A stretch of 64,000 bases of DNA, from positions 434,001 through 498,000 of the forward strand of contig SADC01001176.1 of NCBI GenBank assembly GCA_004194705.1, given 5' to 3'. The position numbers and the translations under genes were made by a program. The notes under the pieces were generated by a model. It was not told the DNA's origin, did not search any database, and worked only from the letters and a program-made list of their open reading frames with translations. Positions 6,476 to 60,790 of this stretch are shown here, one piece after another. Position 1 is the first letter of the stretch; each line of letters starts with the position of its first letter. Origin of the DNA: Ditylenchus dipsaci. Its lineage: Eukaryota; Nematoda; Chromadorea; Rhabditida; Anguinidae.

Positions 6476-9303
6476 TTACAAATCTACAAGTTTTATAAGA
6501 TCTATTTTCTCTAAATTAAGTTTAAATGATTGGATAGTTCCGGAGGAAATTACAGCGATAGGCAAATTATAGTAAAGCTTAGAGACTCTAATACAGAAAT
6601 GGTTGTATCTTACATTAGTTTTACACACTGGAATAGTTAATTTAGATTCTAATCCTCTAGTCTTAGAAGCTTTTAACATTGGCATATGACTCAAATTAAC
6701 AATGGCAAGTTTAAGCACAACTTTGTGATAGAAAACTAAGTCAAGCACTATTCGTCTATATTGAAGAGATTTTAAACCCAATATTTTTAGCAATTTTTCA
6801 TATGATGGTTTGTCTGGGTACTTCGTTTTCAAAGATCGGTAATATATTATATTAACTGCCATCGATTGAACTTTTTCTAATTTTTTAATTTCCTTAGCAT
6901 AACTGGGATTAAAGAGGATAGAGTTAAATTCAAGTATTGGTCGAACATACGTTACATACATTTGGCATAGGAATTTCGAATTATTTGATCGGATAGCCTT
7001 GAATAAAGAAAATAATTTCAACGATGCAATTTTTCGAGTGTAATCGATGTACACTTTCCATCTCAGGTCAGGTGTGATTTTAATACCTAGGTCTTTAATA
7101 GAGTCGGTAACAGCCGGTATGCTAAAATCATTAACTAAATATTGAAATTGGGGATTATTTCGACCAAGGTATAGAACTGAGCATTTATCCGTAGCGATTT
7201 TCAATTTGTTCTTAATGCAATAAGCTGAAAAAGAATTTATGAATTTTTGTAGTGTAGTTGAAAATGTGGGATCAGAATAAATGACGTAAGCTTTCAGATC
7301 ATCAGCAAAGAACTTGAGAGTAACATTGGATAAGAAGCATTCAGTCGATATATCTGAGATGTAAAAAAGAAACAATAGTGGCCCTAAAACTGAACCTTGG
7401 GGCACCCCACTTGAAATAGGTTGAGCGTTTGAAAAAGAATCACCTACTTTAACTGAAAAAGACCGCCCAGTTATAAAGCTCTTGATCCATTCTAATAGCG
7501 CTCCTCTGACACCAATATTTTAAAGTTTTTGCAGCAAAATAGTGTGGGAAATCGAGTCAAAAGCTTTAGAAATATCGAAATAAACTACATCTACCCACTT
7601 TTTTTGTTCAATAGCATTTGTCCAATCGTCAAGATTTTCAAGTAGTTGGGTCGTAACAGATTTTCGAGAACGGAAACCATGCTGAGAAGAAGGTAAAACC
7701 TTATTTTTTTCAAAAAATTCGCTCAATTTATTGTGGATTATTTTTTCCATTATTTTTGATAAAGAACATGTAAGACTTATAGGTCGATAGTTATTTGGAT
7801 CAGATACTAGCCCCTTTTTATACAGCGGCAGGACTTGAGAAAATTCCAAATTTCCGGAATTTCACCACTCATAATCGAATATTGAAAAATGTGGGTAATT
7901 GGTGAGGCCAACCCTCCGCACAATTTTTAAGAAAAATATAAGGAATAGAGTCAGGAGACGAGTTTATCTTGGCAGGTAGATTAAGAAGCATTCGATATAC
8001 TTGGATCTTATCTATATCAACAAAAGAAATGTGATTGACGTTTAGCTGAGGTTTAGGTGAAGCTACAAAGCTTCTGTCAGGTTGTTGAAAAACAGATGAA
8101 AAATGAGACGCAAAACACTCAGCTTTATCAGCTGGAGAAAAAATAGTTGAATCTTTTATTTTAAGGGCCGAAATTTTGGTGTTTTTAGATGCTGTTTGAG
8201 AAGAAATATACGAGTGAATTTTTTTGCTTGATTTGTTCATAAGCAATTTGTTTTCTTTTGATCTGAAATATTTGAGTGTCTCTTTTTGGAGATCAGTTGT
8301 GGTTTTTTGAAATTTTTCCATGACTTTTGCATGTTTAATGTTTTCCACAACTTTTCTCTGTAGGAGAGAATCGATTTGATGTGAGATGGGAGATACGTCT
8401 TTTTGATAGTCAATTGGGGCCCTGACTGCTTTATATGATGGCAGAGAATGTTGTTAAACACAGAGTAAATGCTGTTGATATTAGCAGTGTGAGAAAAGTG
8501 TCTGACCAGTGGAAGTTAGCAAACTTGTTTAAACATGTGGAAATCGCACTTCGAAAAACAGAGAACTTTTTGGGCTTACAAATTTTATGATTAAATGATG
8601 CAGAAAAAGTAATTTGACAGTGGTCAGATGACACAAAAGGTGGATGCAATTGCAGATTATTAATAATTGTTGGGAAGTCAGTGATCACAAGGTCCAGTAT
8701 CGAATTATTTCTAGTGTTTTTTGTTATAAGCTGGAACAATTTAGACTCCTGTAAAAAATTAAAAAATAATTTTTCAGACGAACTCATTTGAATTTCGAAA
8801 GGTTTGGACCAGTTTATACCAGGAAAATTAAAATCACCGGTTATTATTTTAGGGTACGAAACAGTTACCAAATTGCTTAATACATTGCAAATCTCTTCAA
8901 TAATAGGTGGTGTACTAGCGGGTGGAACATAAATATTCACAATTCTCATTATGTTAGTAAGATTAGAATCATAAATATCTAGGCAAACTAAATCAACGTG
9001 CTTAATAGTAGGTGTTTGAATTTGAACACAAAAAAAGGATGAAGTAACAATTATAGCAGAGTCTCCACCTCTACTTGCTCTATCAGAACGATACAAAGTA
9101 TAATTTGGATTAGGACATACTAAGGAGCTGTCTACATTTTTTTGCAGCCAGGTCTCACTAATAGAAATAATATGATACTTATAAGAATCTAACACTAAAG
9201 AAAGCTCATTAATTTTGTTCACTAAACTACGTGAGTTAAAAGATAAAAGGAGAGACCTGGTGTGGAACACTGGATCAGTTTCCCTGGCCTGGTCGGTCTT
9301 TGC
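6476..9303 (-). pseudogene. LINE ORF2: endonuclease plus reverse transcriptase, broken
   Basis: This enzyme would nick target DNA and copy the element RNA. The endonuclease (about 8431-9270) shows SETWL, GDFNFPGINW, LDLVITD and SSDHCQ, the catalytic Glu, Asp/Asn and His blocks of APE-type nucleases. The reverse transcriptase shows NNYRPISL, VYFDISKAFDS, PQGSVLGPLLF and FADD. The frame shifts near 8430-8350 and near 7860. An AAA-to-TAA nonsense codon follows LLQKL at about 7517-7519. The frame is open from 9303 but has no ATG near its start: the conserved region begins 4 nt past the ORF1 stop with a GTG codon. The family is CR1 or Jockey superfamily; a tree of the RT domain would decide. Some frame breaks may be assembly errors. 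Confidence 0.85.
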
Positions 9304-14158: not shown

Positions 14159-17100
14159 ATGGATTCATCGACTTCCTCATCGTCTTCCCTAGCTCCAACG
14201 GCCACTATCTCAAGTAAGTTTTGCTATTAAGACGACAAAAATGTGGTATCAAATTTCGATTATGAAAAAACTTTTCCTTTTTTAGTTTGGTACAATAGCA
14301 TCTGCCGTATTCTCTGTAATAGAAGACCTCCTTTTTTCAAAATAGTGTTTCGGCATTGTGTTTTTGACCTGATTTGTGATTACTGCTCTCAAGCAAGTTA
14401 CCACTATAGTTCTCAAAACATCAAACTTGATGATATCATCAAAATCGGTGTTTTTTACTTCAAACACCTCTTTTTCATATTTTTCGATTTCTTACCCCAG
14501 ATGTTTTCACAACGTCTTGTAGCTGAGATTTTTCTCTATCCATTGAGTGGTCAAACAGTCCAGTAAAAAATAATTTTTAAAGAAATCAAACCAAAAGTAT
14601 GGTAAAAAAACCCCACTAAAAAACACCGAGGTAAAAACATGGTTTTTTACCTTATTTTGGCGTGCTTTCCTTAAAAATTACTCTTAACTAGGGTGTTTGA
14701 CCACTCAATCGATAGAAAAAAATCTCAGCTACCAGACGATGTGAAAACATCTGAGATAAGGAAACGAAATATATTAAAAAGTGGTGTTTAAAGTGAAAAA
14801 CACCGAATTTTGATGATATCATCAAATTTGATGTTTTTGAGATTTATACTTACCACCTTTTAAGAAAATGAAATTTGACTTCTGGGAAATTTTTTAATAA
14901 AAGGTTGGGTTGTGGGATTGTCCGGACTTCCAACAACAAAACTTGTTATTTAGTTTTTATCAAATTACACAACCCTAGTAAAATAGCATTCGTCAGACTA
15001 TTATTAACACATTATAGTCTTAGAGCAGATTTAAACTTTTCAATTTTTTTTTATTTTTCCCGTCTATTCTAAATTCTGAAAGCGTTTTTCAAATTCCTAG
15101 TCGAAATTTGGCCTAGGATTCATCCATTTTAGCTTAAAGAATGGGGAAAAGCTACTTAGGTTTCATAATTCGGCCTCGGTGGCGTTTGTGTTTTTCGGCC
15201 TGAAGTCGTGCACAGGTTCGATCCCACGTGGTGGCACGCTATTTATTTTGGCTTGTTTGATCAGTTTTAGAGGTAATTAGACTTTTTGACGCCAGATTTA
15301 GCGACCCAAATTACCCTAGACATCGGTCAGAAGGCCCAAAATAAATAGCATGCCACCATGTGGGATTGAACCTGTGCACGATTCTTGGCCGAAAAACACA
15401 AACGCTTACCCACTGCGCCACCGAGGCCACTTTTTCAAGCCTAAGTAGCTTTTCCCCTCCTTCAAGCCCATGGTAGATTACCATGGAAGCCGACTGGAAA
15501 TCGCAAATCTGACAAAATTTTCAACCACTTTTTTCCTCGCCCTTGAAATTTATGATTTCCTACTTATCCATCATAAACCAGCTAACGAATTTTTTGCAAT
15601 GTCTTTAACCACCAAATTTTTTGCCCAAGTGCCTTTTCGAGTTTCAACCAAAATGGCTTGTCAACATGGTCTGCTTGACAATATGTCATTGTGCATCCTT
15701 AAAGCCCCTCTAATCTTCATTGTTTTGGTGGTGGCCTTGTTGAGGCTAATTCAAGAGGTGCTTCTAATGCTAAATGCTGTTCACACGAGTCACTAAAACA
15801 GAAGGGGGTGAAGGGCTGGAAGTGTAAGTGCTTCCCACCATATTTGCAATTAACAATTGAGGATGGCCTACAGCATCATCATAATTAATATATTTTGGTG
15901 TTTGCCAAGCCCATAACCAGCCTACTTTTGCATCTATAAAAATATTGCTTTTTGAGAGTCGAGAGTGCTTTTGATGGAAAATGAAAAGCTTTAAGTCCTG
16001 GGAATTGTTGGATAGGAGAAGGAACTTTTTGGTGTAGCATTTACTGCTGCTAAAGTAATTCAGTAGTAGTAGTCAAAAGAGAATTTTGGTTGAGCTTTTT
16101 GCTGTAGAAAGAAGGAAGAAGTACTGTAGAACAGATAGAGAACAGAAAAAAATGTTATGTGGTTAGTTCGAGTGATTGAAGAGGATAGAGAAAAGAATTT
16201 TAGGTGGTGGTAAAGAGGTGAAGATGATTTGAAATCGATTTTTGAAAGGTTTTTTAACTGAAATTTTATTGGACTTATCTCTCCGTGGGTACCAATTTTT
16301 GCCTTGGCCCCCTGTTTTTTTGCGATTTTTTAGGCTTAGGCAAGGGTAGGCCAACGTATGTCACAGTGACGTAATGGCACCGGTGCGGCACCGTCTCGCA
16401 CCGGTACCGGTTGGTGCCGAAGCGGAAAATTTGCGATAAAATCAGTCAAAATGAAAATTTGCCCCAAAAAAGAGCAAAATTTGTTTCAAAAAAAGTAAAT
16501 TTGGGGGAGGAGTAAACTAGGCCATTTCAAACTGGGCCAATGCAAACTGAGCCCATTTCAAACTGGGCCATTTCAAACTGAGCCAATGCAAACTGGGCCA
16601 TTTCAAACTGGGTCAATGCAAACTGGGCCCATTTCAAACTGGGCCATTTCAAACTGGGCCAATGCAAACTGGGCCACAGTATTGAGTCACATAAGAAGGG
16701 TGCCATTACAATTGAAATTGGCCCAATTTGAATTGGCCCAGATTGCATTGGCCCACTTTGAAATTGGCCCAGTTTAAAATGGCCCAATTTCCTTTGGCCC
16801 AGTTTGAAATGGCCCAGTTTACTCCTCCCCAAATTTGCCCCAAAAAAGAATTACTCATTTTTTCGGCGGTAGTAATCCAGCTTTTCCCCAGCTATTTTCC
16901 CGCTTAGTCCGGAAATAGCATGCAAGCCGACAATATCCATGCCCAAAACTGGAAAATTTGGTTTAGAAGAAGAGACAAATTATTTGGAGTGACAGAGATT
17001 AAAAATTTTCAGGCCGCATATTGCTGGATGTGCCTTGTCGAGTGTGTCAAGACACTCTTCTGGAAAACACTATGGAATTTTTTCATGCGATGGCTGTGCT

Positions 17101-20100
17101 GGATTCTTCAAACGGTCTGTGCGGCGCCATCGCCAGTATGTGTGCAAGGCCAGAGGGGTGGTGATGAGGGCAACTGCATGGTAGACAAACACACAGAAAC
17201 CAGTGCCGCTCTTGCAGGCTCAGAAAATGTTTGGAAATTGGTTAGTTTTCGGGATACGAGTTCAGGATAAATTCTACCCCAGTTGCCATCTTGAATTGCT
17301 TGCGAACAGCCAAAAACAAAAAATATTTTTTTCGAACTCAGCAAAAACTCTAATTCATCCTGAGTCAGGTTTTTCGCCAATCGTCAACTGTAGAATTCCT
17401 CGTTTATTATACGAGGAATTTTACAGTTATTAAGATACACTTAAAGGCGGACAAAATCTGACTCAGCAAAAGCTCCTATTCGTCCTGAGTCAGGTTTTTC
17501 GCCAATTGTTAACTGTAGAAGTACTCGTGTATCATATGAGAAATTCTATAGTTATTAAAATACAGTTATTGACGGGGCAAAATCTGACTCAGGGTGAATG
17601 GATGCTTCTGCTGTCAGCGAAAAAAAATTATGTGGAGGCGTTTTTTTAGTGTAGCGTTAAAAAAAAATATCACATTCGAAAAATGACTTGAGCTCCAAAT
17701 TAATAATGAACCTGTATGACCCCAAGGCAATACCTCAATCAATGGCGTGTTGGTAGAAAACCGGCGATTTTCGAATTTTTTAAGAAACAAATTTTAGGCA
17801 TGAACAAAGAAGCAGTGCAGCACGAGCGAGGACCCCGAAACTCCACCCTCAAGCGCCAAATGGCCATGCTGAATGGCCTGCAACATCACCGTCAGCACCA
17901 CCCTAAACCAACTATAGACACCCCTAGAAGGGTATCCACACAGTTGTTCAGTCCCAATCTACCTATTTCTCAAGCCCCAACCAACCATGCACCCAACAAT
18001 AGCATATTTTGTTCCATGGACACTTCTGGGAATCTGCAGCTAAAGTCGTCTGGAGCATCCATGCCTTCCTGTTCTTCATCATTCCCATTTGGGTCATTGC
18101 CTTTCAATACCGGGAATTCGGTGGCGGCGGCTTCCGACCTGTTCAACAGTTTGCCCGGATTTGTGAGTTTGTTTCGTAAAATTCAATAATTAAATTTTTG
18201 ATAATGAAAAGTCAGAACCCAATTTTGTTTTGCAAAGGAATCGGGAAAGCTGGGTGAAAAACGTGTCCGATCATAGAAGGGACAAACTTGAGGTAAGGGA
18301 CAATAAATTGGTGGTCGACCCGTCACATTGTTTTTCGGTCAAATTATTGTCAACCTTTTCTGCAGTAAGCTCAGCTATTACTGATTTTTTTTGGCTCATA
18401 CTGATTTGGTTTGCGAAAAGGCTGAAATATGCCACGAAAAAGATTATTTCTGCCACGAAAAACGACATACCACGAAAAAGCTGAAATGTACCACGAAAAA
18501 GCTGAATTGTGCCACGAAAAAAATATTTATGCCTTTTTCTGTCCAAGACCAACCAAACTTTGCAATATTTTGCAAGAATTCAAATTTTTTAGTCATGAAT
18601 AACTTGGATCCCTCAGAATCCCACCCCGGAATGGCCAGAAGCCCCTGAAAGTTAGTTTTTTGGGGTTTACTAAAGGGGAGTAAACTTTTGCGAAAATTCG
18701 ATTGAGCGGATCAGAATCCCCGTCCGATCGACTGAATCACTCAGAATTCCAGGTTTATGGTGGTTTTGAGTGGTTCAGGGTGAAACTCTGAGTGATTCAG
18801 TCGATCGACCGGGATTCTGATCCGCTCAATCGAATTTTCGCAAAAAGTTTACTCCCCCTTCAGTAAACCCCAAAAAACCAACTTTCAGGGGCTTCTGGCC
18901 ATTCCGGCGTGGGATTCTGAGGATCCAAGTTATTTCATGACTAAAAATTTGAATTCTTGCAAAGTATTGCAAAATTTGGTTGGTCTTGGACAGAAAAAGG
19001 CATAAATATTTTTTCGTGGCACAATTCAGCTTTTTCGTGGCACAATTCAGCTTTTTCGTGGCACATTTCAGCTTTTTCGTGGTATGTCGTTTTTCGTGCA
19101 GAAATAATCTTTTTCGTGGCATATTTCAGCCTTTTCGCAAACCAAATCAGTTTATGCCTTTTTTTTTGAAATATTTTTCATTGGTGTAGCTCTGCAATTA
19201 CTCTTTCCGACTCTATAAAATTTTTAAAAATCTTCAGAAAAAAGCCTTTCAAATAAAGTACCATTTGGCTAGTCAAAATACCGTATTTCCTCTAATTAAC
19301 ACCCCCCCCTGATTCTAAATCGTGTTCTTGGCATGGTGTTTTAACCCAATTTTTCGGTCACTTCTCTCAGGCAAGTTACCACCCATTTTGTAGCTAGAAA
19401 GATGAGCTATTAAATGATTGGTAACTTGCCTGAGAGAAGTGGTAAAAAGTGGCCTAAAAACACAATGCCAAAACGCGATTTTGGATTAGGGGGGGGGTTT
19501 TAATTAGAGGAAATACGGTATACAATCCTTTTTGTTGCAGCAAGAAAGGCTTTTTTGCCGCAAATTTTCAATTTAATTATTTGACACAAAAGTGTCATTT
19601 TAAACAATTTATTTGCGACAACATAAAAAAGTTTTTTATACTAAAAAACGACCCAGTCAACTTTCGTTAAACCGCCACCCTCTCGAGTTCGTTCCCGCCT
19701 AGGGTCCGACACTTTTTTACCTCAATTTTCAAAGCTTTTTGACAGTTGTCTTCGGCCAGTCTAGTCAAAATATCGCAAGGATTCTAATTTTGTTGATCAT
19801 TTTGTAAATGACAATAGTTTGACCGAAAAGACCCGCGGGTACTCAATAAACCGGCACCCCTTTTTCAAAAAGCAAGTTGAAACAAAAAATCCAAAAAACT
19901 GAAAAGCATAATCCCGACTTGAGTAAATATCTGTTCGACCATTTGGTGGTCTCTTACCTATTTGAATATTTCTGTTTATCATTTTGAAGTATACTCTGAC
20001 TTTAAAATGTCTATTCAGTTTACTCAAAATTCAATTTTCCAGTCAATTCCCAAGCAAAAAATATACTGTAGTAGCTGTTGCATTAGTACCAGAAAATAGC

Positions 20101-25140: not shown

Positions 25141-26495
25141 TTATCTAGACCCAACAACTATAGACAATGCAAAACATTTATTTTGGTAGGTAATCGCCTT
25201 CGTATTGGACAAATTCTTCCCATCGATGGCCTGATTCAGTGAAAGCACGGACAAAGAAACTGATGGCTTTGATGCTAAGAAATCTTTGATGAACATTCGA
25301 ATTTCCTTCACTGTTTTGAACTCCTTTTCCTTCAAAGCGTTTTGCAGCGATCGAAAGAGTTTATAGTTTGTTGTCGCCAAGTCTGGTGAGTAAGGAGGGT
25401 GTGGCACGACGGTCCAGCCAAGCTTCTCGAGCTTATTCTTTGTCTTTTTCGCTTTGTCTGGCGTAGCATTGTCATGAAGAAACAATGTTTTCTTGCAGTG
25501 TTCTCTCTTCTCATTCAGTGCCTTTTGTACTCGGTCGAGCTGCTCACAGTAGACATCCGCAGTGATTGTGTGTCCTTTAGGCATGAGTTCCCAGTGAATA
25601 CTTCCTTCAGAGTCGCACTACACACATAACATGACCTTCAGTGGATGTAGATCTGAAGAATAAAATGTCAAAAGAAAAGTGAAATCAATGAACCTGGCTT
25701 AGCATTAGCACTAAGTCTTTCTCCTTTCTTAGTCCGGCGCACTAGGTTGTTTTAGAGAACCCAATGTTCATCAGATGTAACTATTTCGTCCAGCTTAATG
25801 TCACCCTCGTTCAAGCGATTTAATAGTTGTTGTGCAATCACCATACGGTCTTTTTCATTCTTTTCAGTAAGGCGGTGAGGAAACCATTGACCGAGTTTGC
25901 TTACCTTTCCGAGAGAATATAGATGGCTTAGGACGGAGCTGTGAGAACAGTTGAGCAATGGAGCCATTTCACGGATGGTGAGTTTTGAATCTTTTTCTTT
26001 TAAGGCAACCAGTTTGTTGTCGTCGAAGTCACTTGGGCGCCTAGTTCTTGGCTCATCTTCCAGATCGTCTGCTCTTTTCCTGCCTTCACGAAACAGCTTA
26101 CCGTATTTCCTCTAATAAGCGCCCCCGCTTTAATAAGCGCCCTCCCTCGACTTTGAGGGTCTGGATCTCAGTGTAGAAGCAATATTTTGCGAAGCTGTTT
26201 GATACGTTTTCTTAACTCCCACGAGCTCTACCGATTCCATTTTTTAGATTTTGGTTAAGCACCCAAAAATCTCAAAATCGAATTCCAAATTTTCCAATTT
26301 TCGGAGGTTTAAAAAATAAGCGCCTGGGGCGCTTATTAGAGGAAATACGGTAAGCCATTTGCTACAGAAAAAAGATCCTGGTGCCTGCTCCCCGTAAACC
26401 TGCTTCAGTTGTCTGGCAGAATCAACGGCGCTAATTGAATGATCCTTGTCAAACAAAAAAAGGCAAGCACTCTTGTGCTTTGAAAATTCAGTCAT
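25141..26495 (-). pseudogene. Mariner transposase, inactivated
   Basis: This is a DDE/D cut-and-paste transposase. ATG 26493-26495 opens MTEFSKHKSACLFLFDKD. The DNA-binding region reads SKWL then KLFREGRKRADDLEDEPRTR across the MITE. The catalytic part shows VTSDEHWV, LFLHDNATPDKAKK and PHPPYSPDLATTNYKLFRSL. In the DD34D pattern the third Asp would fall in the TTNYK block, where Asn stands instead. Nonsense codons replace the residue after HWVL and the Trp of VMLCVW. A 41-bp GT-AG intron can be placed at 25653-25693. The enzyme is almost certainly dead. Confidence 0.88.
26101..26350. mobile_element. MITE-A copy inside the mariner transposase
   Basis: This 250-bp copy has perfect CCGTATTTCCTCTAATAAGC ends between TA (26099-26100, 26351-26352). 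Removing the element and one TA joins ...CSKWL to KLFREGRK... in frame, which fixes both boundaries exactly and shows the MITE is younger than the mariner. Confidence 0.95.
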
Positions 26496-27349: not shown

Positions 27350-27800
27350 TGATACTTAAACCATCTGGATGGTACCCAAACCACCTGAATGGTACCCAAA
27401 CCACCGATATGGTACCCAAATCACCTGGATAGTGCCCAAACCATCTGGATGTTACCCGAAACACCTGGATGGCATTCAAATCACCTGGATAGTACCCAAA
27501 CCATCTGGATATCACCCAAACCATCTGGATGTTACCCAACCACCTGGATGGTACTCAAATCTTCTGGATAGTAGCCAAACTATCTGGATAACACCCAAAA
27601 CACCTGTATGTTACCCAAACCACCTGGATGGTACTCAAATCTTCTGGATAGTACCCAAACCATCTGGATATCACCCAAAACACCTATATGTTACCCAAAC
27701 CACCTGGATGGTACCCAAATCACATGGATGGTACTCGAACCCTCTGGATAATACCCGAATCATCTGGATATCAATCAAAACACCTGGATGATACCTAAAC
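27350..27800. repeat. Tandem array, about 20-bp unit CCTGGATGGTACCCAAACCA
   Basis: More than twenty degenerate units alternate CACCTGGATGGTACCCAAAC, CATCTGGATAGTACCCAAAC and similar. Frames are open through it on both strands only because the unit lacks stops. A related array lies at 34500-35300. Confidence 0.9.
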
Positions 27801-28410
27801 CAAAAAATTTCTGGCTGAGTAGGGTAGGTGGATCAGTTAATAGATAATCCTAATAAAAAGTGAATGCTTAGGGGCGATTGTGATATTTGTCGACCACAAT
27901 TGCCAAAAAATGTTTCTACGAAGAAAGCAATTATACTTGGCTGTATGTGAAAACTCCTGGCAAATGTGTGAAATTTCCCGACTAATTAATTAATTTTCCC
28001 GGCAAATTCTTATTTGCCTAAAAGTAATGAATTTTCCCGACAAATCTGTGAAATTTCCCCGACAAATCTGTGAAAGTTCCAGGCAAATTTTCCGATCATC
28101 CGAAAGATGTTTTTTTAATTCTTTGAGTAATTTTCAAAGAGAGCTCGCAAATGATAAAAACAGAAAATTAGTCAATGAATCAGCTTACTGTATCCAATTC
28201 CCCCCATTTTCAGTCACCCATGTATCGACATCTTCCTTGCTAGAGCAATCCTTTGCAGTTGTCCATTCGCCCGCCAAACCACGCTTATTTTGTTGCTTAG
28301 CTTGGAATTGCCTCTCTAAGATTACCGTATTTCCTCTAATAGGCGCCCCGGGGCGTTTTTTTTTCGAACCTCTGAAAATTTTGAAATTGTCAATCAAAAA
28401 TGGTCTTAAC

Positions 28411-28795
28411 CAGTGCTGTGCAAATCTCCGCTCTTCGCTCCGCTCTTTGCTCCGCTCTGCTCCGCTCCGAGCAAAGAGCCAGAGCGGGAGCGAAATTTTT
28501 GAAAAAGGGAGCAAAGAGCCAGAGCGGGAGCGAAAAATTTAAAAAAGGGAGCAAAGAGCCAGAGCGGGAGCGAAAAATTTAAAAAAGGGAGCAAAGAGCC
28601 AGAGCGGGAGCGAAAAATTTAAAAAAGGGAGCAAAGAGCCAGAGCGGGAGCGAAAAATTTAAAAAAGGGAGCAAAGAGCCAGAGCGGGAGCGAAAAATTT
28701 AAAAAAGGAGCAAAGAGCCAGAGCGGGAGCGAAAAATTTAAAAAAGGGAGCAAAGAGCCAGAGCGGGAGCGAAAATTTGAAAATGCACAGCACTG
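28411..28795. mobile_element. hAT MITE with internal satellite, duplication GTCTTAAC
   Basis: The ends are CAGTGCTGTGCA and TGCACAGCACTG. GTCTTAAC flanks both sides exactly (28403-28410, 28796-28803) and fits nTnnnnAn. It is almost filled by a 40-bp tandem repeat. Confidence 0.92.
28451..28770. repeat. 40-bp tandem repeat, about 8 units
   Basis: The unit is GGGAGCAAAGAGCCAGAGCG followed by GGAGCGAAAAATTTAAAAAA, nearly identical from copy to copy. One unit is one base short near 28705. The low divergence indicates recent expansion. Frames across it are artefacts. Confidence 0.95.
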
Positions 28796-33875: not shown

Positions 33876-36800
33876 AAAGTTGTGGCTCCTGCTGGCCGTT
33901 TGCGTGTATTGCTGTTTGGAAGCAGACCTGGCACAAAAATATCACAGCTGCTTTCAAAACAATGAACGTGTAGAATGTCAACATGCATCAACTGTCCTCA
34001 ACTTTCACAATTGATAACTGCTCTGTCCGAACAAGATTTGCTAAATTATCAAGGTGCTGGCGATTGTAGTGGAGGTCGCATTAAAGATGCGACGGAGTAA
34101 GTATTTTCACGGTGTTTTACTTGACACAATGCCTTGTAGCTAAATACAGGGTGTCTACGTTAATCTTAATAGTATTTGGCATGTGTGGGTGGGTGGCTAA
34201 CGCTTTTTGACTTCGGAGGCCAAAACGGTTCGTAGACGGCGAAATCACTTTTGTCGCTAATACTATCGTGTTCAGAATCTCAGCTTTCGTTAAAAAAAAA
34301 CGGCTACAAAAAGTGAGTTTAAATAGGGATATACCTATTTTTATGAAGTGAATCAGAAAAATCCGGATAAATTGTCTCGAGAAGAATTTGAAAATATACA
34401 GTCAAGTTTGAATTTCGAGAGCCGTCTATAAGGGAATCGAGCATACTAAGCACGATGCTGTTGTCAGAAATCAGGTGTTGTCTCAGTCAAAGCCCGAGCC
34501 ACCAGGTTAGGCCCAATACCACCTAACCTCGATACCACCTAACCATCAGAATAAGGCCCGAACCACCTGGATACTCCGCAACTACCAGGATAGGGCCTGA
34601 ACCACCTGAATACTCCCCAACTACCAGGATAGGGCGCAAACAACCTGGATACCCCAAACAACAAAAATAGGGTCCGAACCACCAAGTTGGGGCCCAAACC
34701 ACGTGGATAACGCCCAACCACCAGGCTAAGACCCAGGCCAGGTAGGGTAGGTAGGTGTCAAGTAGGGTAGGTAGGTGGCCAGTTAGGGCAGGTAGGTGGC
34801 CAGTTAGGTAAGTAGGTGGCCAGGGAGTGGTTAGATGGCGAGTTAGGGTAGGGTAAGCAAATCGACTTCAAATTCATCCGATTGTAAAGAAAAACGTCTT
34901 GAGGCTCCTACTATTGAATTCTTTAAAAAAATTCACGATTAGCATATTTTTTCAGTTAGCTTTCGTAGTTACGACAATTCACCAAGCGCCTGTCAGGCGT
35001 AATCACCAGGATGGACCAGAACTACGTGAATACCCCTCAACCACCAGGATCGGTCCCGAGGCACCAGGAAAATGCCCCAACAACCGAGAGGGGCCCAACT
35101 GCCAAAATATGTTCCGAACTACCAAAATGGCCCGAATCACGTGGGTACTCACCAAACATCTAGGATGGTTATCGAACCATGTGGATACCATGAACTGCCA
35201 GGATAGGGCCCGAACCACCAGAAAGCACCTCAACCACCAGGATGTGGCTGAAACACGAGGAAAGTACCTTAACAACCAGGAAAGTATCCGACAAGGAGAA
35301 CGAGTGGGAAGAAAAAGCCAGAAAGGGGTAGTCAGGAGTGTATGCGATGGATAAATATTTATTAATTTCAAATTTCAAAATATCATAGTGGCGCCGAAAG
35401 GCGCCTGTTGTCCCTAATTTTTTTTCAATATCACAATATTGCAAATGAAAGCTCATTTCAAAGCAGGTGGGACACGCATTTCGACATTTTATTTTCTCAT
35501 AATGAAAATATTTTAAAAACTAACTACAGTCAAACCTCTCTATAACATACCCCTCCATAACATACACTTCTTTATAACATACCCCAGGGTCGGTCCCAGG
35601 AGGCTATGTTCCGTATAATTTACCCTCTCCATAACATAAATCTCCCTATAACATACGTCTGGGGTCGGTCCCTGGCCGTATGCTACCCCCCCATGAGGCT
35701 GGTGACCTGTTGACGCCTTGTCCTTCGACAACATAAAGCCAACAACATTTTTTCTACTTTCAAAGAATCTGATGATTATTTCCCGTATAGTCCGCAGTCT
35801 GGGCAATGAAGCCCACCGGACTGGAATTCTGATCTGCTCAATCGATTTTTTGATGAACGTTTTACCTTTTCAGTAAAACCCTAAAAAACCAGTCATTTCT
35901 GGCTTTTGTCCACTCCAGGGTGGGTCATGAGCGATCCTGAAAAAAGGTTGATGTAGTGCCTTATAAAACTCACAACCCATGTTGATGGTTCGAATCCGCC
36001 AGTAACAGGGCACATTACCACAAAAAGGCACTTTTTCACAAAAGGAGGCATATTTTCACAAAAAAACATTTTTCCCTTTTTGACTAAAAGAAAAAAAGAA
36101 GCACATTTTCATGAAAAAAGGGCATTTTTCGCCAAAAAAGGTATTTTCGTATTGCCCAACATTTTTTTAAACAAACTCAAAACATTATATTTTAAAGCGT
36201 GTTTTTTTTCATATTCCTTTCTTTTCATATTCCGTGTTTTTTCATACTTATATGTAGGGAGATAGGTGAGTAAACTCAGAGAACTCTAAGGGACATACAT
36301 ATTTAGGCTATATATCAGATATCCCCTTAAAGTCCAGTGGAAGGCACGCCACCGCAGATCACTCGCATGATTGGAAAAAATACCATCACGCGCGGTGGGT
36401 TTACAGTCGGATTGGTATTGTATTGCATAGCCACAATGAATTTTGCTTCTATAAAGCAAGCCATGTTCGCCTAGTAAAATAATATTTTAGTCATCTTGGA
36501 GGAAGGGCAACAGCGGCCAGCAATCCATCACATTCAATGTAAATAAAAAATGTTCTTCTGCCAAAAAGAGAAAGTTTAACAGTTTGAGACAAGGCCAGTA
36601 AATTGCGATAAAAATTTACAACCAGCAGTTGAACAGTCCAAACAGTTTAACTCTCTGCAAACTTTGATGAACTGCAACAAAAAAGTGGGCCAAGGTTACT
36701 CTAGGATAATTGAGAACCGCTGTGACTGGTCCCACTATCTACATTGTTTGGACTATGTGAAGTTTGGCCGAGTGAAATGGTCCGGCCATGGGTTAATTTT

Positions 36801-45069: not shown

Positions 45070-49906
<4,837 letters not shown>

Positions 49907-55052: not shown

Positions 55053-55945
55053 TAGAGATGGCATCCGGCATTTCAGGATTTTACTTTCGAACGCATTTAA
55101 ACCCACTATTCAATAAACACGGAGAACTGAAAATCTCACAACCCTCACCTACTTTTTATTGGGCAAAACTTTTTATTGTCGCTGAATGACTTTTTCTGTC
55201 GCCGAAATACTTTTTCTTGTCGCCGAAAAAACTTGTCGCCGAAAGACTTGTTATTGTCGCCTAAAATCTTTTTTTGTAGCCGAAAATCTTTTCTTGGGCG
55301 ATTAAGCCCATCGGACCCGAAATCTGATCCGCTGAATTGATTTTTCTCAAAAAGTTCACTCCCCCCCCCTTTAATAAAACCCCAAAAGTAATAATTTTGG
55401 CATTTTGGCCATTACGGAGTGGATCGTGAACCATCTGGTCTTTCCCCACCTCTGAATTTCACACAAAAAATCAAAAAATTGCTGATTTCGTGTCGAGAAC
55501 AATTTTCCGCGACAAGAAAAGATTTTCGGCGACAAAAAGATTTTCGGCGACAATAAAGTCTTTCAGCGACAAGTTTTTCGGCGACAAGAAAAAGTATTTC
55601 GGCGACAGAAAAAAGTATTTCGGCGACAGAAAAAGTCGTTCGGCGACAATAAAAAGTTTTGCCCCTTTTATTACTCCTCTATATATTAGATGTTAAACTT
55701 TTTGAATTTAATTTAAAAAGTTTTGAACCTTGAACCTTGCGACCCTGACTCCCTAGAAATGAAATTTCGGTAATGGATTTCGGGATTCAGGCTCACAGAT
55801 CCGAAACTTTCAAATCAAATACAAAAAGTAAAAATCTAACCGATAGAGAAAAGTAGCTAGGTTGTAAATTTTCAGCTAATTATGTCCGTTCAAAGTGGTC
55901 AAAAATGCGTTTGAAAAAAATCCCGAAATTCGGATGCCATCTCTA
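55053..55945. mobile_element. hAT element, exact duplication GTTTTCAG, carrying a foldback
   Basis: The ends TAGAGATGGCATCCGGCATT and the inverse CGGATGCCATCTCTA are flanked by GTTTTCAG (55045-55052, 55946-55953), fitting nTnnnnAn. Subterminal CGAACGCATTTAAA and AAAATGCGTTTGAA pair. A shared-core foldback is nested at 55161-55664. Confidence 0.92.
55161..55664. repeat. Foldback with TCGGCGACAAGAAAAAGTATT arms
   Basis: Each arm iterates a 19 to 22-bp motif, TCGGCGACAATAAAAAGT or TCGGCGACAGAAAAAGTATT, about eight times. The ends are GGGCAAAACTTTTTATTGTC and its inverse. The centre holds half of the shared core (GGGCGATTAAGCCCATCGG, TCTGATCCGCTGAATTGA). The flanks TTTTTATT and CTTTTATT could be an 8-bp duplication. 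It is nested in hAT 55053-55945. Confidence 0.85.
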
Positions 55946-58765: not shown

Positions 58766-59365
58766 AGTCAGAATTCTGAGATAACAAAGTCAGAATTTCT
58801 GAAACAGATTTATCAGAATTCTTAATTCAGAATTCTTATCTCAGAATTATCAGCTAAGAATAAAAAAAATTCAAATAAGAATTTTCAAAAATCTTAAATA
58901 AGAATTCTGCTATCACAGAATTCTGTTATTTCAGAATTCTTAGATAAGAATTTTCAAAATTTTCTATTCTAAGAATTCTTAATCTCAGAATTTTCAAAAT
59001 TTCTTACATAAGAATTCCGGCTCTCTCCTGTTATATCCAAAACTGTTACATCTAAAAATGGTTCTAGTTTTATCAGGTTCTCGCCAAAAGTTCCAGCAAG
59101 GTTTTAGCCTTTCAAGTTCAATTATTTATGATACAATACTTCAGGCTTTCCTCTATTACTATATGGAAATAACAAAATTTAAAATGAAAAGCTAGAAAGA
59201 TGCTGGAACTTTGGCGAGAACCGGATAAAACTAGAACCATTTTTAGATGTAACAGTTTTGGATATAACAGGAGAGAGCCAGAATTCCTTATCTCAGAATT
59301 TTATGCGTTTTCTACAATTCTTATATAAGAAAGTCAGAATTATGTTTCTGTTTTGGAATCACTGT
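58766..59365. repeat. Iterated CAGAATTCT array split by a MITE
   Basis: More than fifteen copies of CAGAATTCTTA, TAAGAATTTTCAAAA and variants, in both orientations, lie on each side of 59019-59279. It is probably the subterminal array of an unidentified element. Confidence 0.7.
59019..59279. mobile_element. MITE, 261 bp, 8-bp duplication AGAATTCC
   Basis: GGCTCTCTCCTGTTATATCC and its inverse bound the element. The inverted arms reach TTACATCTAAAAATGGTTCT and CTCGCCAAAAGTTCCAGCA. AGAATTCC flanks it exactly (59011-59018, 59280-59287), although AGAATTC is common in this array. The ends do not look like hAT, and the superfamily is unknown. Confidence 0.75.
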
Positions 59366-59374
59366 TTTTTGGGG

Positions 59375-59965
59375 TTTACTAAAGGGGGGGGGTAAACTTT
59401 TTGCGAAAAATCGATTGAGCGGATCAGATTTCGGGTCCGATGGGCTCAATCGCTCAGGATTCCACCCTTAACAATTCTCAACTATCTTAAACCAACCTAA
59501 GCACTGATTTAGGGTAGTTAGACACTGGTCTGGAACAGTTTGGGATGGTTTAGGGTGGTTTAAGATGGTTGAGAATGGTTAAGGGTGAGAATTCCGGTCC
59601 GATCGGCTTAATCGCTCAGAATTTCAGGTTTATGACGGTTTTGAGTAGTTCAGGGCGGAATTCTGAGCGATTAAGCCGATCGGACCGGAATTCTGATCCG
59701 CCCAATCGAATTTTCGCAAAAAGTTTACCCCCCCCTTTAGTAAACCCCAAAAACCAACTTTCAGGGGCTTCTGGCCACTCGGGGGTGGGATTTTGAGCGA
59801 TCCAAGTCATTTTTGACTATAAAATCTGAATTCCCGCAAAATTTACTGCAGTATTTCACCGAAAATTCAAATTTGGCGGGGTAAAAAATAATTTGGCGGG
59901 GTAAATCAGTAATTTGGCGGGGTAAATTAGTTACAGCCATTTCGTAAATGCTGGATTGGCGTTTT
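59375..59965. repeat. Two rearranged copies of the shared foldback core, GGCGGGGTAAATCAGTAATTT arm
   Basis: GGGGTTTACTAAAGGGGGGG, GATTGAGCGGATCAGATTTC and GGGCTCAATCGCTCAGGATT occur twice in inverted order. TTTAGGGTGGTTTAAGATGG-type filler lies between them. On the right an arm iterates GGCGGGGTAAATCAGTAATTT three times (59873-59935). The left arm is absent. Confidence 0.7.
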
Positions 59966-60077: not shown

Positions 60078-60790
60078 GGCTGTACCTGAAAACACCCGTC
60101 AAAATCATTAAATCTCCGTCAAATTTATTTTTTATCCCGTCAAATTCAAAATTTCCACAAAATCATTATTTCTCCCGTCAAAATCATCAAATCTCCCGTC
60201 AAATTTAAATTTTTGCATAAATTTTGCGGGAATTCAAATTTTCTAGTCAGAAAATAACTTGGATTGGTCAGAATCCCACCCGGAATGGCCAGAAGCCCCT
60301 GAAAATTGGTTTTTTCGGGGTTTACTAAAGGGGGAGTAAACTTTTTGCGAAAAATCGATTGAGCGGATCAGATTTCGGGTCAGATGGGCTTAATCGCCCA
60401 GAATTCCTGGTTTATGGTGGTTTTTAGTGGTTCAGGGTAGAGTTGTGGGCGATTAAGCCCATCTGACCCGCATTCTGATCCGCTCAATCGATTGTTCGCA
60501 AAAGTCCACCCAGTCCCTTTAGTAAACCCCCAAAAAACCAACTTTCAGGCGCTTCTGGCCATTCCGGGTGGGATTCTGACAATCCCAGTTATTTTCTGAC
60601 TAGAAAATTTGAATTCCCGCAAAATTTATGCAAAAATTTAAATTTGACGGGAGATTTAATGATTTTGACGGGAGATTTAATGATTTTAACGGGAGAAAAT
60701 AATGATTTTGTGGAAATTTGAATTTGACGGGATAAAAAATAAATTTGACGGGAGATTTAATGATTTTGACGGGTGTTTTCGATTTGAGCC
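60078..60790. repeat. 713-bp foldback with GACGGGAGATTTAATGATTTT arms
   Basis: GGCTGTACCTGAAAACACCC on the left pairs with the right end (complement GGCTCAAATCGAAAACACCC). Each arm iterates CCCGTCAAAATCATTAAATC or its inverse five to six times. Next come GCGGGAATTCAAATTTTCTA and the shared core (GGCCAGAAGCCCCTGAAAAT, GGGGTTTACTAAAGGGGGAG, GATTGAGCGGATCAGATTTC). Confidence 0.85.

Follow-up and report, generated by a model that had tools for sequence, protein, structure and literature searches.

Non-coding foldback elements of Ditylenchus dipsaci have a position-specific AT-rich scaffold in common and, to judge from the aligned sequences, related subfamilies differ just in a GC-rich box of 5-8 bp in each unit of about 21 bp. 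Five copies are present in the window, i.e. the whole stretch of 64 kb that was analysed; two of them (E1 and E5) are complete and three (E2, E3 and E4) are partial. The boxes are multiplied, symmetric and alike within an element, they are replaced in place in the aligned subfamilies, fossil units are found, and MULE transposons of the same genome are built on the same plan. The reading that we favour, with modest confidence, is that the five loci are non-coding elements of the Mutator/Foldback type and that their boxes are multiplied transposase-binding sites, which would be rewritten as the specificity of the transposase drifts.

The core 15-mer GATTGAGCGGATCAG has 2,479 exact matches (1240 + 1239) in the genome searched (227 Mb, 1359 contigs) and none with the reversed-pattern control, an abundance far beyond chance. 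The sample comprised 62 distinct core loci, chosen by contig order and exact core words (the first ones up to contig C24), and the five copies of the window; eight duplicate loci (L003, L007, L012, L014, L017, L023, L027 and L030) were left out, and L054 consists of two elements, giving 68 elements in total. Arm words were labelled by regular expressions in 63 of the 68 elements, five having no label and the label of L048 (CCCCTC) being doubtful. Twenty distinct arm words were found among the 68 elements, which bears out the suggestion of an earlier note on this DNA that one core is combined with many arm words. The same word is present in both arms of all 39 scorable elements (about 10% expected by chance). 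Of 349 box spacings, 248 are 19-23 bp (184 of these exactly 21 bp), 29 are 15-18 bp and 72 are 34-59 bp. By these spacings, the inverted ends are built from iterated short units, as in foldback elements, and long terminal inverted repeats are present in E1, E5 and most sampled elements. With E1 as a query, many near-full-length places of 90-96% identity were found (88 match rows, with 40 of 3,997 first-look candidates scored), so arm and core travel together within the E1 subfamily.

The description of all five loci as foldbacks holds for E1 and E5, complete inverted repeats with a common core, and has to be restricted for the three partial copies (Table 1). Self-complementarity is 87.5% over 779 aligned columns in E1 and 84.4% over 725 in E5; their common core of about 430 bp is 84% identical, yet the arm words differ. 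E1 has flanks of T8 and T9, and its duplication TTTTTTTT (8 bp) is perfect but of low complexity; that of E5 is 10 bp long with one mismatch. E2 gives a single half-core match of 76% identity, and the start stated for it falls within the core and is no terminus; on the half-core tree it joins L057 and L043 at an open fork (support 87). E3 has an inverted repeat (55161-55237 and 55588-55664) that is 90% complementary, one half-core match and, by eye, an 8-bp match with one mismatch in its flanks. The right arm of E4 carries three boxes CCCGCC and the terminus GGCTGTAACT and retains an inner fossil unit, ACTGCAGTAAATTT; its right end was placed by eye at 59938, not 59965 as first reported. The core words quoted in the earlier note are exact in E1, E4 and E5 and, by eye, occur as diverged forms in E2 and E3.

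Table 1. Foldback copies in the window and their parts
Feature	Position	Strand	Description
E1, complete	18393..19158	.	GGC ends, ~21-bp units, box CCACG, long core
E1 core (part common to E1 and E5)	18559..18977	.	84.2% identity to 60212-60638
E1 left arm, iterated 21-bp units	18414..18521	+	Tandem Repeats Finder, 5.3 copies
E1 right arm, inverted iterated 21-bp units	19010..19137	-	Tandem Repeats Finder, 6.3 copies
E2, partial and old	35800..36157	.	About half of the core (35800-35937) and one decayed arm
E3	55161..55664	.	Both arms, box TCGCCG, GGGC ends, about half of a short-type core
E4	59365..59938	.	Long-centre-type core and right arm; left arm missing
E5, complete	60078..60790	.	Ends GGCTGTACC / GGCTCAAATC, box CCCGTC, long core
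E5 core (part common to E5 and E1)	60212..60638	.	84.2% identity to 18559-18977

Several other features were seen in the window. A further foldback (16514-16836) consists of inverted 15-bp units (AAACTGGGCCATTTC) with the ends GGGGAGGAGTAAACT and AGTTTACTCCTCCCC, read by eye, and its period resembles that of MULE ends. Two tandem repeats are present, one of 40 bp at 28469-28783 (7.9 copies, 97% matches), a young minisatellite, and one of 20 bp at 27358-27802 (22.3 copies) with a higher-order period of 80 bp. Minus-strand ORFs suggest, by eye, a candidate non-LTR retrotransposon with endonuclease and reverse transcriptase (6476-9303) and a candidate piece of a mariner-type transposase (25141-25617). 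An Hsp90 gene of several exons is located on the minus strand at 45070-48712; one exon was searched, and its matches carry PF00183.

The termini begin with GGC, GGG or GGA, so that the outer ends GGC or GGGC named before are to be supplemented by GGA, which is used in other subfamilies. Both ends have a candidate GG start in 34 elements. Of these, 24 are flanked by a duplication of 8-10 bp with at most one mismatch, which is perfect in 17 and 9 bp long in 20 of these 24, and no 8-10 bp duplication was found in the other 10. When left and right flanks were taken from different elements as a control, 45 of 1122 combinations matched, 5 of them perfectly. Instead of the constant 8-bp duplication anticipated earlier, the length is thus mostly 9 bp with a range of 8-10 bp, which agrees with the 8-11 bp target duplications of Mutator elements and not with the 7 bp of Galileo, 8-10 bp being the only lengths scored. 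The detected duplications bracket whole elements, which argues against the arms being independent nested MITEs with duplications of their own. Outside the 34-element count, duplications were read by eye for L105 (9 bp), for L106 and L107 (10 bp each) and for an element nested in L078 (L078:293-1333), where the 9-bp duplication ATTTTTTTC is perfect; the latter element, of the 21-bp type, carries the box GCCCTC, differs in its centre and lies within the iterated terminus of a MULE.

The replacement of boxes is best seen in 25 arms with the boxes CCCGCC, CCCGTC, CCCCTC, GCCCTC, GCAGT and CCAGT, which for most of their length align on a single AT-rich frame, unit-specific stretches included, such as the T run of unit 3 and the long spacer preceding unit 4 (L026_L and L052_L are absent from the alignment, no start having been found). 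Identities were contrasted for units 2-6 of 8 of these arms. In the box, 562 of 624 positions are identical between units within one element versus 594 of 1092 across subfamilies in the same unit; in the scaffold, the values are 775 of 1040 and 1339 of 1820, respectively, and 4941 of 7280 between different units. This contrast is made smaller because three of the 8 arms have the common box CCCGTC. In the cleanest pair, L035 (CCCGCC) and L058 (CCCGTC), all 12 boxes are changed by the same C-to-T (6/6 per arm) versus 25 of 344 other columns (10/172 and 15/172 per arm); Fisher values for boxes against other columns are descriptive only, because the columns were picked after looking. The same box CCCGTC is found on different scaffolds, ACTGATTT in L058, ATGTAAAT in L066 and CATTAAAT in E5. 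The in-place change was read from the aligned subfamilies; the arms of E1 and those with ACCGCA, CCGACT and TCGCCG are outside the alignment and have period and ends in common with the aligned ones. The earlier wording that arms are 'swapped or remade' can therefore be narrowed for the aligned subfamilies, where the arms look remade, box by box, and mostly not swapped as blocks. Decay of methylated CpG as the source of the box changes was set aside because these include C/G and G/T differences and one C-to-T outside CpG.

The innermost units can retain an older box. As to the fossils and INTERMEDIATES, the core-adjacent stretch GCA(G/T)TAAA(A/T)T was found in 14 of 17 CCCGCC, 7 of 11 CCCGTC and 2 of 2 CCCCTC arms, so that 23 of these 30 arms retain an inner fossil unit. 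It also stands beside the core in all four arms examined from the GCAGT subfamily, whose regular box it is. It is absent from all 31 arms that extend to this edge of the core and carry one of six other labels. Mixed boxes occur in the arms of L059, L004 and L040 and in the inner units of L106, as well as in MULEs, namely in the two innermost units of L089 and in L091 (two TTGGC among TTGCC).

The MULE profile PF10551 has at least 115 matches in the genome (150 of 504 candidates scored). In a first set, the 5' flanks of 26 loci (L071, L072, L075-L098), iterated ends were found in 23, comprising 22 arrays and the short array of L082 (2.6 copies; three units by eye), and no iterated array was found in the 5' flanks of L087 and L092. 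The CCCGTC arrays beside L082 were rejected as its own, as they belong to another palindrome. The 20-21 bp array of L080 was considered as that of a MULE with 21-bp arms; it has the opposite orientation and, followed from the other side, ends GGATAAATC, and was therefore read as a neighbouring element. In a second set, with narrower pieces of 801 bp, 9 of 20 had an array versus 16 of 79 window pieces, the window itself containing such arms.

The MULE end units are mostly 14-17 bp long, and the following have a common frame: CCGTTT-GATCGAAAA in L075, CCGTTT-CCCGCCCGG in L084, CCGTTT-CGCTCCCGG in L097, CCGTTT-GAGTCCCGG in L093, TCGTTT-GTTCG-AAAAGT in L076 and L079, and TCGTTT-CCCCT-AAAAGT in L083. 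In the pair L077/L114, whose boxes are TTCTGTC and TTCTTTC, G stands against T in 9 of 9 boxes, and 8 of 131 other columns differ. L091 and L095 differ in 11 of 11 boxes (nine C/T, two G/T) and in 41 of 196 other columns, L089 and L090, with the boxes TTGCTAA and TTGGTAA, in 12 of 14 boxes (11 C/G, and one against T via a local misfit) and in 53 of 260 other columns, the exceptions being the two innermost boxes of L089, which are unchanged. The opposite end of L089 contains eight TTGCTAA and no TTGGTAA, and the element is flanked on either side by GATTTCGGA. The opposite end of L077 has nine TTCTGTC in its array, and TATTTCCT (8 bp) flanks this element at each end. The flanks were read by eye; a right-end array of L090 was not found in the piece read.

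FLYWCH (PF04500) matches were identified in the MULEs L075, L079, L082 and L084, and the domain was not recognised in the tried ORFs of L089 and L091. An N-terminal FLYWCH domain, as in Phantom and Tm1-like elements, is therefore a feature of the MULEs of this genome and not of the non-coding elements of the window. Faster evolution of the DNA-binding segment was unsupported in two of three MULE pairs, the values for this segment versus the catalytic domain being 0.81 vs 0.83 and 0.70 vs 0.68, with 0.45 vs 0.58-0.72 in the third pair. Another transposase type, Merlin (PF12762, IS1595/IS1016 type), has 124 genome matches at threshold; the two of its loci that were read have GG ends and no arrays beyond about two copies, and Merlin was set aside as the mobiliser of the window elements because both lack longer iterated arms.

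The plan, the GG ends and the duplication length are common to the 21-bp elements and the MULEs, the units being shorter in the latter, and the end GGCTGTAC is found both in the MULEs L078, L085, L089 and L090 and at the left end of E5. We infer that the 21-bp elements are probably mobilised by a MULE-type transposase, and the idea that the arms are recognised by a transposase seems right as the presumption it was put forward as. Against this inference, none of the 46 MULE loci of which parts were read was found to have 21-bp arms. End searches for two subfamilies gave 94 + 92 and 84 + 80 exact matches, and the first 100 of each were examined. Among the 100 matches listed for the first subfamily, six pairs of ends lie more than 1.3 kb apart by eye, three of which were read; among the 100 listed for the second, no such pair was seen by eye. 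The three wide-spaced pairs read were rejected as autonomous copies: in L105, about 2.9 kb separate the two parts of a core, and L106 and L107 (about 2.3-2.4 kb, CCCGCC arms of 12-13 units each) lack the core and have an unfamiliar interior, in the alignable part of which the two agree at 96-98%. Four ORFs tried in L105-L107 had no Pfam match, and no transposase was recognised in them.

Under the favoured reading, the box would be the predicted binding site of the N-terminal domain of a FLYWCH-MULE transposase, and its repetition would serve affinity. As the specificity of the transposase drifts, copies with better-fitting boxes would be mobilised more, a selection by mobilisation, and repeated rounds would replace the box unit by unit, with scaffold, core and ends staying as they are; inner units would change last and may persist as fossils, and non-coding elements would follow any transposase that fits their boxes. 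The DNA-binding segment is not accelerated in two of three pairs, which counts against the simple form of this specificity-drift model. Also weighing against the reading are the ORFs of L089 and L091 without a recognised FLYWCH domain, the 10 of 34 elements without a duplication, the arrays in just 9 of 20 pieces of the second MULE set and the right-end array of L090 that was not found. The THAP sites of Galileo and the coevolution of VANC proteins with their motifs, as far as the available portions of these reports describe them, are precedents that make the mechanism plausible. More tentatively, the genome might contain dozens of coexisting, mutually specific pairs of MULE transposase and box, the address word of 5-8 bp being rewritten stepwise and in place at about 10-30 sites per element from the outside inwards, and the palindromes might switch transposase by box rewriting, with a relic of the former address left next to the core; we regard this wider picture as possible rather than probable.

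The swap proposed earlier, in which a kept core takes up whole arms from unrelated elements, would account for L056, where a short-type core is joined to long-core-type arms, for the CCCGCC arms without core in L106/L107, and for the presence of CCCCTC on separate core lineages, with at least three changes on starred branches (L048, one of its three elements, is weakly labelled). However, the core tree predicts the arm label: on a weakly resolved tree of 108 half-cores and 144 columns (7 of 105 inner branches starred), the label changes 31 times with unlabelled elements as a group and 29 times without them, the minimum being 19, versus a mean of 82.2 changes for shuffled labels, which were as low as observed in 0 of 200 shuffles. 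Therefore, arms and core mostly descend together and the arms are not freely interchangeable; the fixed one-to-one combinations that had been named as the contrary outcome are nearly reached inside a subfamily and do not hold overall. The arms of several subfamilies also align lengthwise, against capture as blocks. From the sequences compared, block exchange of arms looks rare, the cases being L056, L106/L107 and the element nested in L078 with its other centre, and block capture as the general explanation is highly improbable.

Neutral concerted evolution, in which slippage and gene conversion with hairpin-templated copying of arms homogenise the box without selection for binding, deserves more weight and is still unlikely. 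Near-identical unit runs in some arms, e.g. the inner units of L067, and the agreement of the two arms in 39 of 39 elements are what it would produce, but a spread of whole units would also wipe out the unit-specific scaffold, which stays, and gene conversion would have to proceed in tracts as short as 5-8 bp and at 6-14 sites. A somewhat smaller chance is given to the boxes being targets of an element-encoded, VANC-like anti-silencing protein, or of a host repressor or small-RNA system, that would be escaped by a change of the box. According to the accessible parts of the reports, VANC proteins bind short tandem motifs that are divergent between related VANDALs (PMC5735166, PMC10398659), and hairpin RNA is obtainable from palindromes (PMC6446971); the arrays described here, however, are inverted and located at the very ends, starting from the terminus.

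How a transposase can acquire a new specificity while its element bears the site many times over is an unsolved question. The near-minimal family pairs found here, some with a transposase gene, show a one-base difference at almost all sites and are accompanied by part-converted intermediates and fossil units. Coevolution of a DNA-binding domain and its multiplied site is thus made directly testable in vitro, and candidate orthogonal transposase-site pairs are on offer.

Foldback ends with tandem repeats, a Mutator-type transposase and duplications of 8-10 bp are characteristic of Drosophila FB, Phantom and Rehavkus, for which we know of no family of coexisting box variants. The TU elements of sea urchin are modular foldbacks with an iterated outer domain of about 15 bp and varied middles; there, one outer domain goes with many middles, the opposite of the arrangement described here, in which many arm words accompany a single core. 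The claim that no family with this design had been described was too strong, as Tm1, Phantom and FB together with VANDAL/VANC have, in the accounts available in part, much of it. Tm1 of root-knot nematodes, a Mutator/Foldback element with a FLYWCH and MULE transposase of the Phantom subclass, has 9-bp duplications, ends made of an iterated motif of 13-15 bp and many non-autonomous copies (PMC3169594), in all of which it is like the D. dipsaci elements. It differs in having one somewhat variable family motif, and the available portion of its account mentions neither replacement of the box in every unit nor one core with many words (PMC3169594). Galileo of Drosophila, where transposase (THAP) sites in the end repeats were demonstrated by footprint and EMSA (PMC3688188), likewise has long, internally repeated ends and chimeric copies; it belongs to the P superfamily, with 7-bp duplications and long repeats, and no box replacement is described in the accessible parts of its reports (PMC3688188, PMC3573991). 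Coordinated box replacement within a kept scaffold of Foldback or MULE ends did not appear in the titles and abstract openings of the open-access PMC articles listed by the literature searches. In the VANDAL MULEs of Arabidopsis, VANC proteins recognise short, tandemly repeated motifs and coevolve with them (PMC5735166, PMC10398659). Short multiplied motifs that diverge between relatives are thus common to both systems, whereas the VANDAL repeats, as far as they are described there, lie in non-coding regions, are bound by an anti-silencing protein and evolve via tandem-repeat formation. Unlike these, the repeats of the D. dipsaci elements form inverted arms at the termini and retain a scaffold specific to each unit; the elements belong to a known kind, and their pattern of box rewriting looks new.
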